From a virus, in IMG/VR virus record IMGVR_UViG_3300042987_001283, positions 1 through 23,220 of that record: a DNA stretch of 23,220 bases. One strand, given 5' to 3'. The first letter of the stretch is position 1. Every line of letters starts with the position of its first letter. Shown here one piece after another: positions 4,328 through 23,220 of this stretch. The notes beneath the pieces were generated by a model. It was not told the origin of the DNA. It worked only from the letters and a program-made list of their open reading frames with translations, and did no database searches. The position numbers and the translations under genes were made by a program.

Positions 4328-4365
4328 ACGGGTGGGGAAAAATCCTCACCCGTTTTCGTTTTCTT
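4328..4365 (+). terminator. Rho-independent terminator after prohead protease
   Basis: A 10-bp GC-rich stem with one G-U pair (ACGGGTGGGG at 4328-4337 pairing with CCTCACCCGT at 4344-4353), a 6-base A-rich loop, then TTTTCGTTTTCTT. It lies 33 bases after the protease stop and separates the terminase-portal-protease unit from the capsid unit. Confidence 0.85.
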
Positions 4366-4370
4366 GCCAC

Positions 4371-4403
4371 GCAATTTGACAGATTTGAAATCCATGGTCG
4401 AAT
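4371..4403 (+). promoter_or_regulatory. Candidate promoter for the capsid transcription unit
   Basis: GCAATTTGACA at 4371-4381 contains a perfect TTGACA (4376-4381). A 16-base spacer ending in GG leads to TCGAAT (4398-4403), which matches TATAAT at 4 of 6 positions. It lies directly downstream of the terminator and upstream of the capsid leader. The same GCAATTT...GGT arrangement recurs before two other transcription units (15744 and 18896), which raises confidence. Confidence 0.6.
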
Positions 4404-4419
4404 GTAACTAGTTCGAGGT

Positions 4420-4464
4420 CGCGTAGTCTTTACGCGCGATTTCCCGACAACGGGGATCGTGCGT
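4420..4464 (+). promoter_or_regulatory. Structured 5' leader of the capsid mRNA
   Basis: Two overlapping, mutually exclusive hairpins. The first is CGCGTA/TACGCG (4420-4425 with 4431-4436, 5-base loop). The second is longer: 4432-4441 pairs with 4455-4464 and 4443-4446 with 4451-4454, with T4442 bulged and an ACAA loop (14 pairs, two of them G-U). They share 4432-4436, so only one can form at once. There is no uridine run after either, so they do not look like terminators. This could be a stability element or a regulatory switch; I recognise no known riboswitch. Confidence 0.5.
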
Positions 4465-4497
4465 CTTTAGATACGCTTACTAAGCATATCCGCATTG

Positions 4498-4522
4498 ATC
4501 CTTAAGCATTCTGCTAAAGGAT
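4498..4522 (+). promoter_or_regulatory. Hairpin sequestering the capsid ribosome-binding site
   Basis: ATCCTT (4498-4503) pairs with AAGGAT (4517-4522), and after an A-A mismatch AGC (4505-4507) pairs with GCT (4513-4515), with loop ATTCT. The 3' strand contains the AAGGA Shine-Dalgarno (4517-4521) used by the capsid ATG at 4531. Folding would hide it, so capsid translation may be regulated or delayed. Confidence 0.55.
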
Positions 4523-4530
4523 TAAACACC

Positions 4531-5883
4531 ATGTCAGAAGTTGAAAACTTGCGCGAAAAGCGCAACGCGGCTCTTGCTGAAGCCAAAGCCATTCACGCCA
4601 AATCAGAAGAGCGCGCTTTGACACCAGAAGAACAAGCCGCCTTTGATGGCCTAATGGCTGAGGTCGATGACCATGAAGCAAGAATAGCAGCTCTTGAAGG
4701 CGCCGCACCGCAGGCAAACGACAACGCCGACGCCGCTGTTGCCCGCTCTGCCAAGCTGGCGAAGGCAGACGAAGCTTCCAAAAAAGTTTCCGTTCGCAAG
4801 ACTGCGCCGATTGAAGCGCCTGCTTTTGTTCGCGACCTCAACGATAAGCAGTCAACCGAAGACAAGAAACTTGCGCTTCGCGGCTGGCTTGGTTACCACT
4901 CAATCGAAGGCATTACCGACCGCCAGCGCGAAGCCGCTCAGCGCAGCGGGCTTGACCTTCACAACAACAAGCTTTCCTTCAGGCTTGGCGGAAAAGCGCC
5001 GCGTAATATTCAGGAAGCGCGCGCGCAGTCTCTCACCGGTTCCGCCGGTGGTTATACTGTGCCGCAAGGTTTCTTGAACCAGCTTGAGGAATCTTTGCTT
5101 TCCTTCGGTGGTATGCGCGAAGTTGCTCAGGTGATTCGCACCGACAGCGGAAACGATTTACCGATTCCGACTGTTAACGACACCGGCAACGTAGGCGCTA
5201 TCCTTGCCGAAAACAGCCAAGTATCTGAACAGGATATGACATTTGCACAGATCACTTTGAAGGCTTACAAATACTCTTCAAAGCTTGTGCGCGTGTCTGC
5301 TGAACTTCTGCAAGACACCGCGATTGATTTGGAATCTTTCATCGGAAACGCTTTGGGTACTAGAATTGCAAGAATTCTAAACACCCATTTCACGACCGGT
5401 GACAATTCCAGCAAGCCGCAGGGCGTCGTAAATGCTGGAACTGGTGTTACCTGCGCCAGCGCTTCGGCGATCACCTACGCTGAATTGCTGGATTTGCAGC
5501 ACAGCGTTGACCCTGCTTATCGTGCAAATGCTCGATTCATGATGCACGATTCAACCTTGAAGGCAGTTCGCAAGCTTGTGGACGGTCAGCAAAGGCCAAT
5601 CTTCCAGCAGGACATCACAGGCGCTTCGCCTGGGACCTTGCTTGGTTGGCCAATCGTGATCAATCAGGACGTTGCCTCGATTGCTGCCGCCGCCAAGGTT
5701 ATCGTTGCTGGTGATTTTTCCAAGTACCTTATCCGCGACGTAACCGACTTTACTCTGTTGCGTCTGGAAGAAAGGTACGCAGACTACCACCAAGTCGGCT
5801 TTGTTGGCTTCAGTCGTCACGATGGCCGAATCCTTGACGCAGGCACCGACCCGCTCAAGGTGATGGCAATGGCGGCTAGCTAA
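4531..5883 (+). CDS. Major capsid protein, HK97 fold
   Basis: Shell protein of the icosahedral head (Phage_capsid type, 450 aa from ATG 4531). The first roughly 150 residues are helical and charged (VENLREKRNAALAEAKAI, then TPEEQAAFDGLMAEVDDHEA), matching the scaffolding delta domain that the upstream protease removes. The folded part starts near SLTGSAGGYTVPQGFLNQ and shows the usual features: RVSAELLQDTAIDLESFIG, NTHFTTGDNSSKPQG, FMMHDSTLKAVRKLVDGQ, LLGWPIVINQDV and VGFSRHDGRILD. The start is fixed by AAGGA nine bases upstream; that site is the one buried in the leader hairpin. It has its own promoter region and leads a long co-oriented unit of head-completion and tail genes. Confidence 0.97.
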   Translation: MSEVENLREKRNAALAEAKAIHAKSEERALTPEEQAAFDGLMAEVDDHEARIAALEGAAPQANDNADAAVARSAKLAKADEASKKVSVRKTAPIEAPAFVRDLNDKQSTEDKKLALRGWLGYHSIEGITDRQREAAQRSGLDLHNNKLSFRLGGKAPRNIQEARAQSLTGSAGGYTVPQGFLNQLEESLLSFGGMREVAQVIRTDSGNDLPIPTVNDTGNVGAILAENSQVSEQDMTFAQITLKAYKYSSKLVRVSAELLQDTAIDLESFIGNALGTRIARILNTHFTTGDNSSKPQGVVNAGTGVTCASASAITYAELLDLQHSVDPAYRANARFMMHDSTLKAVRKLVDGQQRPIFQQDITGASPGTLLGWPIVINQDVASIAAAAKVIVAGDFSKYLIRDVTDFTLLRLEERYADYHQVGFVGFSRHDGRILDAGTDPLKVMAMAAS

Positions 5884-7917: not shown

Positions 7918-8331
7918 ATGGCAGCGGCTGCAAGCTACGGCGCAACGATCACGATTGGCGGAACTTCGATTACCGGCGTTACGGATATCACGCCGCCATC
8001 GTACCAGCGCGGAACGATTGACGTTACCCATCTTGGCTCAACCGGAAGAGCTAAGGAATATATTCCTGGCCTGCTGGACGGCGCGGAAATGACCGTATCC
8101 GTAATATGCGGCGCGGGAACCGGTATCGGAACCGTTGCCGGTTATGTGGACGATTACGGCGCCAACGAAGCCAAAGCGGTTTCCATCGCGCTTGCTGATA
8201 GCGCTGGAAGCTGTTCGTTTAACGCAATCGTTACCCGTGTTTCCATGGACGCTGTCAGCGTCGGTGACAACACCGTTAAAGCAACTATCGGACTGAAACC
8301 AACCGGCGTTGTTACCTACACGCTGACATAA
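7918..8331 (+). CDS. Major tail tube protein
   Basis: 137 aa, Ala/Gly/Thr-rich beta protein. The motifs GATITIGGTSITGVTDITPP, IDVTHLGSTGRAKEYIPGLLDGAEMTV (taken in parts) and the Val/Thr-rich C-terminus are characteristic of siphophage tail tube proteins of the lambda gpV-like superfamily. It polymerises as stacked hexamers around the tape measure. A GGAG lies just upstream of ATG 7918. Confidence 0.92.
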   Translation: MAAAASYGATITIGGTSITGVTDITPPSYQRGTIDVTHLGSTGRAKEYIPGLLDGAEMTVSVICGAGTGIGTVAGYVDDYGANEAKAVSIALADSAGSCSFNAIVTRVSMDAVSVGDNTVKATIGLKPTGVVTYTLT

Positions 8332-9020: not shown

Positions 9021-11276
9021 ATGGCAAAAACAATCGGCGCTCTCTCGGTTGGTATGTCACTATCTGTTGGTGACTTTATTTCCAACATGAGTAAAGCGCA
9101 AAAGAAAGTTTCCGACTTTGGCGATAATGTAACTAAATCAACTTCAAGCATTTCCAAAAATGTAACGAACTTAATTACGCTTTCGAATTTTGGTAACAAG
9201 TTTGTTTCTTCTGCTGAAAAAGCAACCAGCGCCATCAAGTACGTTTACGGAGCCGCCGCCGCCGGTCTGGCCGCTTATGGCGTTTACAAGTTTTATGATC
9301 GCGCCATTGAAGCTTTCAAAAAAACAGAAGATGTAATGGTTCGTATTCGAGGGCTTTCCGAAAATATTGGCGCCGAAAAGATTAGTTCTGTTCTTGAAGA
9401 CATTTCTTCCAAGGGAAGAATTGCAATTGATGTATCGGGTGGACTTGCAGCAAAAATGCTGGCCGCTGGAATCAACAGCGATTCAACGGCAAGGATGCTT
9501 GAAAGCTTTGGTCAGTCTGCCAAAGCTGCCGGTTCTGGCGCGTCTGAAGTTTTTACCAAGCTGGGCGAGATTTCCCTGGCGCTGATGTCCACCGGTGAAG
9601 TGAACGCGCAAAGCTTTGCAGAACTTGCCAGCATGGGCTTGCCTGTTTATGAAGCGCTGGCGCAAAGGCTTTCTAGCGTGACTGGCGAAGCCATCAGCGC
9701 CGAGCGCGCCATGGCCATGCTTGCTGGCGGCCAGGTAAGCGGAACGAATGCGCTTAACGCGCTGGTCGGACTGAGTGGAAACGACAAAGTAAAGGCGCAG
9801 GCAGAAGCGCAGGCGAACACGCTTTCAGGAATCTACGCGCAGCTTGCCGGTGAGATTGAAGGATTTTTTGCCACCATGGGCGGCGCAATAGCGGAAGCGC
9901 TGGACCTAAAGGGATTCAATCAAGTATTGATTGATTTTATTCAAAGCCTAAAAACAAATTTTGATTCAAGTTTAAGGCCAGCAATTGAAAATATAGGGAT
10001 AGCGCTTGCCGCTGTGCGTGATGTTCTTTTTGCTGCGTTTAGAGGTCTTGTTGATTTCTTTGCTCGCTTTGGAGAAACGGATGGAATGATTCAAGATAGG
10101 GTTTCCAGCGTTCGCTCTGCTGTCGTTTCATTCGCTCAAAGTGTTGTTGCAGTATTTGCCCAATTTGCTGACATGGCAACAAAAGCAATTCAAGAGCTAG
10201 TAAATCTTGCAGGTGGCGCAAAACTTCTAGGTAAGTTTGCTGCTGCTGGTGCGGCTGGTGCCGGTGCCGGTGCCGCGGTTGGTTCCGTGTTGCCTGGCAT
10301 TGGAACTGGCATTGGCGCTGGTGTTGGCTTTTTGTCAGGCGTCTTGGGCGTTTCCATGAGCAACGAACGCTTTGGTGAAAATGCTGATTTTTCTGCTGTA
10401 AGAGCTAATATGGAAAAAATGTTTCAAGGCATAAACGACACTATTGGCCAGGTTGGAAGCGATGCCGCAGCAAATTACCTTAAAGGATTCATTACAGGAT
10501 TACAAAACAGCTTCGAGAACAAAAAAGACAACCTTGAAAAAGCTTTATCCATCGACATGAAGGGTTTCTTTGTCAATCTTCAAAGCGGCATTGCATCCGG
10601 TGAAATTGGTTACACAACGTTTCTTTCTCAATTAGCTAACGGAACCGCTTCCGCTATTGCAATTTTCAAGCGCCAAATGGAACTCGGAAACATGAGTACC
10701 GACCAGTTCCAAGAATCCATTGGGGAACTGGAAACGCGCGCGCTCAAAACGCTTGATATTGCGTTGAAGGAAGGCAAGATAACCAACGAGGAATACGGCG
10801 CCAGTATTGAGCGCCTTTATAAACAGCTAGATTCCCTCAAGCCGCCAGAGGATATTATAGCGCCAACCATTCCGACCAAATTGCCCGACTGGATTCAGCA
10901 GCTTACAGAAAAGAAAAGTCCGCTTGATACGTACCGCGAGAAACTTGCGGAACTTGAAAACGCGCTGAACACAGGCCAGATATTGCCGGACGCGTTCGCC
11001 GAAGGCGCAACCATGCTTGCGGACGAACTTGAACGCGCCGTAGGCAGCGTGGAAGCGCTCAAGAACCCTGGCGCCTTGCTGGCAGGTTCGCGCGAAGCGT
11101 TCTCGCAGGTGCTTAAGATTCAGAATCAAGGCAGCGGTGAGAACCCGCAACAGCGCCTTGCACGCCTGGCAGAGCGCGCCAACGAACTGGCACAACAGCA
11201 GGCACGCACACAAGAGCAGATTCTTGCCGCAACGCTCAACAATAATCCAATCGTTACGGCTACATTCGGGGGTTAA
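9021..11276 (+). CDS. Tail tape measure protein
   Basis: 751 aa. It sets tail length and is ejected at infection. The N-terminus (GALSVGMSLSVGDFISNM, SKAQKKVSDFGDNV) and the region AAKMLAAGINSD, FAELASMGLPVYEALAQRL are typical tape measure sequence. A strongly hydrophobic Gly/Ala zipper lies at about residues 398-446 (FAAAGAAGAGAGAAVGSVL and following), a candidate membrane-inserting segment. The C-terminal third is helical and ends Gln/Arg-rich. ATG 9021 follows AGAGG at 7 bases; a GTG at 9018 is possible. Using the rule of about 1.5 angstrom per residue, the tail would be near 110 nm. Confidence 0.92.
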   Translation: MAKTIGALSVGMSLSVGDFISNMSKAQKKVSDFGDNVTKSTSSISKNVTNLITLSNFGNKFVSSAEKATSAIKYVYGAAAAGLAAYGVYKFYDRAIEAFKKTEDVMVRIRGLSENIGAEKISSVLEDISSKGRIAIDVSGGLAAKMLAAGINSDSTARMLESFGQSAKAAGSGASEVFTKLGEISLALMSTGEVNAQSFAELASMGLPVYEALAQRLSSVTGEAISAERAMAMLAGGQVSGTNALNALVGLSGNDKVKAQAEAQANTLSGIYAQLAGEIEGFFATMGGAIAEALDLKGFNQVLIDFIQSLKTNFDSSLRPAIENIGIALAAVRDVLFAAFRGLVDFFARFGETDGMIQDRVSSVRSAVVSFAQSVVAVFAQFADMATKAIQELVNLAGGAKLLGKFAAAGAAGAGAGAAVGSVLPGIGTGIGAGVGFLSGVLGVSMSNERFGENADFSAVRANMEKMFQGINDTIGQVGSDAAANYLKGFITGLQNSFENKKDNLEKALSIDMKGFFVNLQSGIASGEIGYTTFLSQLANGTASAIAIFKRQMELGNMSTDQFQESIGELETRALKTLDIALKEGKITNEEYGASIERLYKQLDSLKPPEDIIAPTIPTKLPDWIQQLTEKKSPLDTYREKLAELENALNTGQILPDAFAEGATMLADELERAVGSVEALKNPGALLAGSREAFSQVLKIQNQGSGENPQQRLARLAERANELAQQQARTQEQILAATLNNNPIVTATFGG

Positions 11277-21744: not shown

Positions 21745-21754
21745 TAAAAGGCTT

Positions 21755-22282
21755 GTACGGAATTGCGTACGGAATTATAAAATCCCGTACGGAAAATAAA
21801 ATTATCCTTTTCAAAATGAGAATATGACCTCTTGCAATGCGAGATAATCAATGATGGCAAATTTAAACTATGCCAAATGACGAATGCTTCGTTTATGAAC
21901 TATTGCAAATAAGGACTATTTGTTGAATTAAGTTTTTCAACTACGCTGCGTGGTTATTCTTTATTTTTTTGTACGGAAAAAAATTCCATTTTTGAAGTCA
22001 TTTTTTGACGTACGGAATTTTGTACGGAAAAAAATTCTCATCGTTTTTTAATGATGAAAACAAAAGGTTTTGTACGGAAAATGGTTAAAAACAACCATGT
22101 TTTTTGAGGTAAATTAAAACCTAAAAATGATCACCAAACGCTTGTAAAATAGGCATTTCCGAAGATTGGTCTTGTACGGAAAAAAGGCATTGGGGTGCAA
22201 GAGGTCGCAGGTTCAAATCCTGTATCCCCGATTGGACTTACGACGATTTTGAAAGTGTAAAATTTCCGTACCAGTACGGAAA
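21755..22282 (+). repeat. Array of ten GTACGGAA sites flanking attP
   Basis: Direct copies begin at 21755, 21767, 21787, 21971, 22010, 22022, 22072, 22174 and 22274; one inverted copy (TTCCGTAC) is at 22264. Two pairs (21755/21767 and 22010/22022) have the same 12-base period and the form GTACGGAATTnnGTACGGAA. Most copies continue with A or T. Eight lie left of the tRNA-like core and two right of it. They best fit arm-type binding sites for the integrase or an accessory factor. Replication iterons or repressor operators are alternatives. Confidence 0.8.
22190..22231 (+). other. attP core matching the 3' half of tRNA-Pro(GGG)
   Basis: The segment reads as the 3' half of a tRNA: loop TTGGGGT (anticodon GGG at 22192-22194), 3' anticodon strand GCAAG, 5-base variable loop AGGTC, T-arm GCAGG-TTCAAAT-CCTGT (22207-22223), acceptor strand ATCCCCG and discriminator A (22231). 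No matching 5' half (expected start CGGGGAT plus D-arm) lies upstream, so it is not a complete tRNA. Lying 129 bases before an integrase, it is the expected attachment core that would restore a host tRNA-Pro on integration. The exact crossover limits cannot be set from one side. Confidence 0.85.
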
Positions 22283-22294
22283 ATCAACACTTTC
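22251..22294 (+). repeat. 44-bp imperfect palindrome upstream of integrase
   Basis: Inner arms TTTCCGTAC/GTACGGAAA (22263-22271 and 22274-22282) around a CA centre, and outer arms GAAAGTGT/ACACTTTC (22251-22258 and 22287-22294), on the same dyad axis with three mismatched pairs between. It contains the two right-hand GTACGGAA sites and overlaps a TAAAAT (22258-22263), so it could be an operator, a paired arm site, or a hairpin in the integrase mRNA leader. Confidence 0.75.
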
Positions 22295-22360
22295 TGGAAA
22301 ACTTTTAGTATTGATTCCGCTTACAACATCGGACACACTTCCACCCATGGGAGGAACCCG

Positions 22361-23220
22361 ATGAAAAAAAAATTTCCTCGCGTGCCGAAGCTATGCAGGC
22401 ACAAGGCGCGCGACCTTGGATTCGTTACCGATCCAGAAACTAAAAAAGAAATATACCTCGGCCCATGGGGAGCGCACGAAACGCGCCGCGCTTACGAGCG
22501 CTGGGTGGCTGATTATATTGCAAGCCGCGACGTTCAACATCCATTGCCACGCGGCGAAGGTACGATCAAGCAACTGGTCGAAAAGTACATTCTTTTTGCG
22601 CGCGACTATTACCGAAAGCCTGGAACGCGGACAGTAACCAGCGAGTATAATTGCGTGCGCCAGGCGCTTCTCGAATTAAAGAACTGGTTTGACGTTTCTT
22701 GCGCCGAGTTTAAACCATCCGATCTTATCGCCGTTCGCCAACAAGTTATTGACCGCAAGCAAGTAAGCCAGAACGGCAAGCCATCGAGCAAGCAGCTATC
22801 TATCAGCACCATCAACGCAATCATAACGCGCTTAAAGCGGATGTTTAAAAAAGGCGTCGAGTGGGAATTCGTACCGGCGGCAACATGGCAGGCGCTTTCC
22901 TGCGTGGCAAATTTATCCTGGCGAACTGCGCCTAACCTGAGAGATACCGCGCCAATCAAGCCGGTTGATATTGAACACGTTCGCGCGGTCATGCCTTATT
23001 TAAAGCCAAAGTTTCAGTTGATGCTTGAAACGCACCTTCAAACTGGAATGCGCATAACGGAGCTATGCTCGATGCGCTGGCGCGAAATCAGCAAATATAA
23101 CGAAGCGCTTTACGCGTACAAGCCAACCGAGCATAAGACCAAACACCGCGGCGTTGACAAGGTTATCTTCCTGCGCGCGGAACTGGTCGAGCGTATGCGC
23201 GAGCTACCGCGCCGCGGTGC
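22361..23220 (+). CDS. int: Tyrosine-family integrase, truncated by the window edge
   Basis: Site-specific recombinase inserting the phage at the tRNA-Pro site. ATG 22361 follows GGGAGGAA. The 286 visible residues comprise an N-terminal arm-binding-like domain (about 1-60, PRVPKLCRHKARDLG and EIYLGPWGAHETRRAYERW), a core-binding helical domain (about 66-190) and the start of the catalytic domain. This has the first catalytic Arg (Arg231) in LQTGMRITELCSMRW and the beta-hairpin Lys (Lys259 or Lys261) in YKPTEHKTKHRG. The His-x-x-Arg box and the Tyr nucleophile lie beyond 23220. The N-terminal and hairpin motifs are those I associate with planctomycete integrases. Confidence 0.93.
   Translation, partial: MKKKFPRVPKLCRHKARDLGFVTDPETKKEIYLGPWGAHETRRAYERWVADYIASRDVQHPLPRGEGTIKQLVEKYILFARDYYRKPGTRTVTSEYNCVRQALLELKNWFDVSCAEFKPSDLIAVRQQVIDRKQVSQNGKPSSKQLSISTINAIITRLKRMFKKGVEWEFVPAATWQALSCVANLSWRTAPNLRDTAPIKPVDIEHVRAVMPYLKPKFQLMLETHLQTGMRITELCSMRWREISKYNEALYAYKPTEHKTKHRGVDKVIFLRAELVERMRELPRRG

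Follow-up and report, generated by a model that had tools for sequence, protein, structure and literature searches.

A conserved RNA leader that may gate major capsid gene expression in a clade of phages

Known systems closest to the capsid leader

In phage lambda, the late promoter pR' is closely followed by the terminator tR', which is passed with Q for structural gene expression. In transcription attenuators such as the Bacillus subtilis rplJL leader (PMC4538822), a promoter is followed by a structured leader with mutually exclusive pairings and by a terminator hairpin with a U-tract before the gene. Q-like loading has been discussed as well (PMC11150451), and 5' UTR hairpins that sequester the Shine-Dalgarno (SD) sequence form a further, general class. 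Finally, the put RNA of phage HK022 is about 70 nt long, comprises two stem-loops and lies just downstream of an early promoter (PMC9378689); binding to the zinc-binding domain of the RNA polymerase beta' subunit is a further mark of this group. In this study, we analysed the leader of the major capsid gene in a window of 23,220 bases, that is, IMG/VR virus record IMGVR_UViG_3300042987_001283, positions 1 to 23,220.

This leader shares with attenuators the promoter, the structured RNA and predicted mutually exclusive pairings and, in most relatives, the terminator hairpin and U-tract before the gene. Unlike the described attenuators, it serves a phage capsid gene, has no known ligand, protein or Rfam match, and has lost the U-tract in the lineage of the window. 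The resemblance to lambda pR'-tR' lies in a late-type promoter followed by a terminator to be passed for the structural genes; in contrast, any control by the leader would be limited to the capsid unit, the fold is kept by covariation, and a Q homologue was not identified. As in SD-sequestering leaders, a conserved hairpin (P4) pairs the SD sequence AAGGA, and its opening is predicted to need a release, but here P4 is joined to an invariant 11-mer and to a three-helix fold that is conserved upstream of it. HK022 put resembles the leader in size, in being a phage RNA and in its place directly after a promoter (PMC9378689). However, we rejected put on architecture and gene: the capsid leader has a closing helix (P1) besides P2, P3 and P4, precedes a late gene and ends in a terminator in most relatives. 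Rfam 15 gave no match in the window and none up to E 5 in the leader; the leader of one relative, L014, had only a chance match of 7.9 bits (gathering threshold 125). A literature search on RNA control by capsid leaders found nothing matching. In our comparison, the leader appears most like an attenuator or an SD-hiding leader, and we claim no membership of a named family. The motif is new; the kind of system is known.

Architecture of the leader in the window

The window carries genes for the small and large terminase subunits, portal, protease and capsid, followed by head-tail and tail genes; a PHROGs check confirmed the protease and the major capsid protein (4531-5883; phrog_10 major head protein, E 2e-83). 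The gene and the RNA elements located here all lie on the plus strand. The terminase-portal-protease unit is closed by an intrinsic terminator (4328-4353; 11-pair stem with 7 GC pairs, a loop of 4, then TTTTCGTTTTC), which is the best plus-strand terminator-like site in the window. Most relatives have an intrinsic terminator at the equivalent place, upstream of the capsid promoter, and it is weak or missing in L009, L012 and L011. Downstream of it lies the candidate capsid promoter (4376-4403), with a -35 box TTGACA at 4376-4381, a -10 box TCGAAT at 4398-4403 and a spacer of 16. Its sequence in the window scores under the consensus threshold of the promoter scan; TTGAC and AAT are conserved across relatives while the spacer diverges, and the -10 box of the relatives is TTTAAT. 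The capsid gene thus has its own terminator-insulated, promoter-like site. From the promoter, transcription would start at about 4410, so that the leader would be about 120 nt long.

Some neighbouring features deserve mention in their own right. Between protease and capsid, some relatives carry variable cargo ORFs (for instance L227, 5663-7259), always upstream of the capsid promoter; this gap spans about 1.6 kb in the related record G001 and 236 bases in the window. Near the end of the window, a sequence resembling a tRNA 3' end (AAGAGGTCGCAGGTTCAAATCCTGTATCCCCGA; 22199-22229 and 22362-23220) is shared with G001 and G003, beside an integrase gene. These two near-complete related records encode a tyrosine integrase (Pfam). 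The tRNA-like sequence is likely an att site, and the phage of the window is therefore probably temperate. GTACGG(A) words (gtacggaaaa and variants) are repeated around it in an AT-rich stretch (21750-22310). No close relatives at the DNA level were found among GenBank phages, and a search of genome contigs for a host returned distant actinobacterial capsids only.

Folding of the leader is far stronger than that of shuffled sequence (z -4.6 for 4404-4533; z -4.8 for 4404-4550). Of 26 start regions tested in the window, of which two entries (536 and 6080) are not real start codons, the capsid start moreover had the lowest fold z (-5.56, then -3.15 and -3.06). The initial annotation had proposed three hairpins, and all of them were found. 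The largest, P2, has 14 pairs at 4432-4464 and a free energy of -21 kcal/mol; it corresponds to the terminator hairpin of the relatives. A 6-bp alternative hairpin at 4420-4436 pairs CGCGUA (strand A) with UACGCG (strand B) across the loop GUCUU and excludes both P1 and P2. The hairpin described at 4498-4522 does bury the capsid AAGGA (4517-4521) in its 3' strand, and proved longer, with four further inner pairs; the whole of P4 spans 4495-4525, with -13 kcal/mol and an SD pairing probability of 0.89-1.0. What that description had missed is the closing helix P1, the invariant AGUCUUUACGC and the terminator nature of the main hairpin in most relatives. P1 pairs GCGUA(g)UCU at 4421-4429 with AGAUACGC at 4469-4476, encloses 4432-4464, and belongs both to the minimum-energy fold of 4404-4533 and to the conserved fold.

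Several strands of the leader have two possible partners. Strand A can pair either with strand B or with the 3' strand of P1; simulation of the growing transcript has A:B form first and give way once P2 is complete. This candidate antiterminator pairing exists in the relatives too; A:B is nevertheless weaker evidence than P1, because the ability to pair is kept only in a shifted register. Strand C (GUGCGU, 4459-4464) can pair with B within P2 or with strand D; in the window, the D-like CCGCAU at 4490-4495 can pair with it at -6.3 kcal/mol, and C:D energies in relatives range from -5.8 to -10.5 kcal/mol. A P3-like hairpin (GAUAcGCUUacuAAGCauAUC, 4470-4490, -5 kcal/mol; counterpart in L011, GAUUAAAA/UUUUAAUC) excludes P1 in the lineage of the window. 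Because P4 has no strand in common with P1 or P2, the fold shows no built-in switch between them.

The 11-mer AGTCTTTACGC (4425-4435) is present unchanged in all leaders. Its 5' part sits in P1 and the junction and its ACGC in P2, so that the motif links the two helices. The sole deviation is a single T-to-A change in an extra copy carried by L011, where the motif occurs in tandem (AGTCTTTACGC then AGTCTTAACGC, 2781-2833) within one capsid leader. A long-range pairing of UCUUU with the SD sequence was rejected because the SD region varies among leaders and the motif does not.

Conservation and covariation among relatives

About 70 IMG/VR relatives, counted at 70-97% capsid identity and with enough upstream sequence, have the TTGAC promoter and the leader directly before the capsid gene; most are fragmentary metagenomic contigs. 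The capsid-protein scan gave 72 viral loci. Scanning the entire viral collection for the DNA pattern yielded 74 stretches, and the new ones, once read, were same-clade capsid leaders in all but five cases (L093, L106, L108, L120 and L122), which we judged to be chance matches. The covariance model R1 matched once per record in 20 of the 23 related virus records (E 1e-15 to 1e-26), with only weak antisense echoes at the same place and nothing elsewhere; the window likewise gave one match and a weak antisense one over it. The three records lacking a match are L049 and L057, in which the capsid start is cut off, and the distant relative L173. Neither the motif nor an R1 match was found in distant capsid relatives (about 40-59%), and no similar leader precedes the distantly related capsid genes of Pseudanabaena phage Pan4 and Microcystis phage Mae-JY02. 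Given its single copy per record and its absence from distant relatives, the leader is a feature of the capsid gene that occurs once and is specific to this clade. Separately, terminator-like hairpins are over-represented before the capsid gene in distant HK97-type relatives that lack the leader: they lie 20-85 bases ahead of the start codon in 12 of 38 loci, where the remainder of those loci would predict 1.1. Some near-duplicate loci enter this count, and two of the twelve sites are weak. The strong ones are L064, L175, L176, L182, L185, L194-L197 and L207.

In homologous leaders, the pairing of P1, P2 and P4 is kept through two-sided changes, and P4 is kept in every lineage examined. RNAalifold on 21 leaders recovered P2, P4 and the P3 hairpin and counted 11 pairs with two-sided changes; in the first alignment it misplaced part of P1 because MAFFT had aligned non-homologous 3' strands. 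P1 was therefore counted on spliced sequences from which the linker and P3 had been removed, a count that assumes the homology it counts, as the pairing rests on the 3' strands chosen as homologous. In 17 distinct spliced leaders, 92.6% of cells were paired, against 24-48% for slid versions. Two-sided changed cells numbered 31 against 10.6 in shuffles, these being cells and not independent events, most of which trace to one split between the lineage of the window and the others. Two further counts stood out less clearly from the control: pairs altered on both sides were more numerous than in all but 8 of 500 shuffles, and pair types were no more numerous than in the shuffles. By helix, P1 pairs 3:54 and 5:52 change on both sides between lineages (C-G/U-A and U-A/C-G), and P1 strands taken from the same leader pair better than most combinations across lineages. 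Two outer-stem pairs of P2 and three pairs of P4 carry two-sided changes, those of P4 being strong, with a single cell in a fourth. The matching base changes in about 70 relatives make it very likely that the leader is a real, uncatalogued RNA control element.

In most relatives, P1 pairs GUGCAgUC(U) with (A)GAUGCAC (GUGCAgUCU:AGAUGCAC) and encloses P2 and P3 in a three-way junction; in the lineage of the window, per-sequence folding has P1 (GCGUAgUCU with AGAUACGC) enclosing P2 only. P2 of most relatives (-18 to -22 kcal/mol) runs directly into U7-8, which makes it a textbook intrinsic terminator lying between promoter and capsid gene, whereas the lineage of the window has a tract degraded to UCUUUAGAUA (4464-4473 in the window) or similar. 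P4 reaches -12.1 to -13.3 kcal/mol where the U-tract is lost and -5.6 to -8.7 kcal/mol where it is kept, and is thus about twice as stable in the lineage of the window. A strict trade-off is contradicted by L011, which has neither a U-tract nor a strong P4 (-5.3) and carries the tandem second motif copy. In essence, the trade-off comes down to a single contrast of one lineage with another.

Candidate mechanism, rival explanations and meaning

The proposal of translational or other leader control made in the initial annotation is reasonable, since covariation did not refute it and P4 is kept everywhere examined; timing, autogenous control by the capsid protein and stabilisation are hypothetical forms of it. 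U7-8 after P2 points to transcriptional attenuation in most relatives. The reading we favour, at a probability of about 45%, is that the leader is a conserved cis-acting RNA that gates major capsid gene expression, keeping coat-protein synthesis in check until released, the main step differing by lineage. This gate would be attenuator-like, transcriptional in most relatives and translational in the lineage of the window. Transcription would start at about 4410 and the nascent RNA would first fold strand A onto B; P2 would then form, and P1 would close around it. In most relatives, P2 and U7-8 would end transcription before the capsid gene, so that capsid mRNA would be made only when something prevents termination, either a phage or host factor, possibly acting at the invariant AGUCUUU, or the alternative pairings. 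In the lineage of the window, the U-tract would have decayed and control moved to P4, which must open for translation; with the terminator arm absent there, the gate would depend wholly on P4. Consistent with such a gate are the extreme fold, the conservation in the clade as a single copy, the compensatory changes, the position of P2 and U7-8, the contrast in P4 and the mutually exclusive strand pairings. Counting against it are the missing terminator arm in the window, the state of L011, the lack of strands common to P4 and P1 or P2, a trade-off drawn from two lineages and a P1 pairing that depends on the 3' strands chosen. That a terminator is kept ahead of a gene in need of high expression suggests that it is passed under control, which favours the gate. 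A more elaborate form is unlikely: a bistable capsid switch in which strands A and C re-pair with B and D between terminator and open folds, a phage or host signal is read at AGUCUUU, and related phages have moved the same control from transcription termination to SD hiding.

The leader might instead stabilise the mRNA, its compact fold about 10 nt from the 5' end shielding capsid mRNA from 5'-dependent decay and P4 being a weak side effect. The stable P1 and P2 at the extreme 5' end and the high demand for capsid protein that is general in phages suit this explanation, which we nonetheless consider unlikely, as it accounts neither for the U7-8 that follows P2 in most relatives nor for the invariant AGUCUUU or an SD hairpin of -13 kcal/mol. 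In a DNA-level operator, a protein would bind the motif and the inverted repeat ACGCRC/GYGCGT immediately after the promoter, and folding of the RNA would be incidental. Such an operator would account for an invariant 11-mer and an inverted repeat near the transcription start and for the tandem copy in L011. It is very improbable given covariation in three separate helices, P4 included, the G-U pairs, and one-base spacing changes that are compensated inside the hairpin.

Two further explanations are translational repression and antitermination, and we find each of them improbable. CsrA typically acts at the SD sequence, and translational repression by a leader-binding phage protein, either the capsid itself or a CsrA-like protein, agrees with the conserved P4 and with the csrA genes of related records. 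A CsrA-family gene (PF02599) is present in 7 of the 23 related records, among them G003 (9628-9810, L229), G001 (29211-29369) and G023 (7984-8139); the available capsid part of G023 (residues 160-450) is identical to that of the window. However, CsrA target leaders present GGA in loops, usually at two sites, whereas here no hairpin loop contains GGA, which occurs only in the P2 and P4 stems, and the AGGA in the stem is in many relatives the only GGA of the leader. We thus rejected assignment to this class; a phage CsrA is a possible post-transcriptional regulator of a leader without canonical sites. For autogenous repression, there was no sign of capsid binding. Antitermination of the put or nut type, with the nascent leader modifying RNA polymerase for read-through of the long capsid-tail unit, would explain why the leader starts just downstream of its promoter, as HK022 putL does (PMC9378689), and why the invariant UCUUUA, followed by a hairpin, resembles a boxA core; the part comparable to rRNA boxA is AGUCUUUA. 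Yet a boxA or nut element (NusB-S10) fails on sequence, as AGTCTTTACGC matches 6 of the 10 specified positions of GYTCTTTAANA, a gamma-proteobacterial consensus (PMC5725501) that may differ from that of the host. The architecture is also unlike the two stem-loops of put, no strong intrinsic terminator was found downstream in the capsid-tail unit, and in most relatives the leader itself ends in a terminator.

Capsid synthesis relative to that of other structural proteins is usually ascribed to promoters and translation rates. The motif is one that Rfam lacks, and it can be looked for in viromes. Since some lineages have a terminator and another has a strong SD hairpin, the clade would offer a comparative system for studying shifts of leaders between transcriptional and translational control. 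A covarying leader confined to the capsid gene would, if true, provide a testable instance of capsid dosage controlled at the RNA level.
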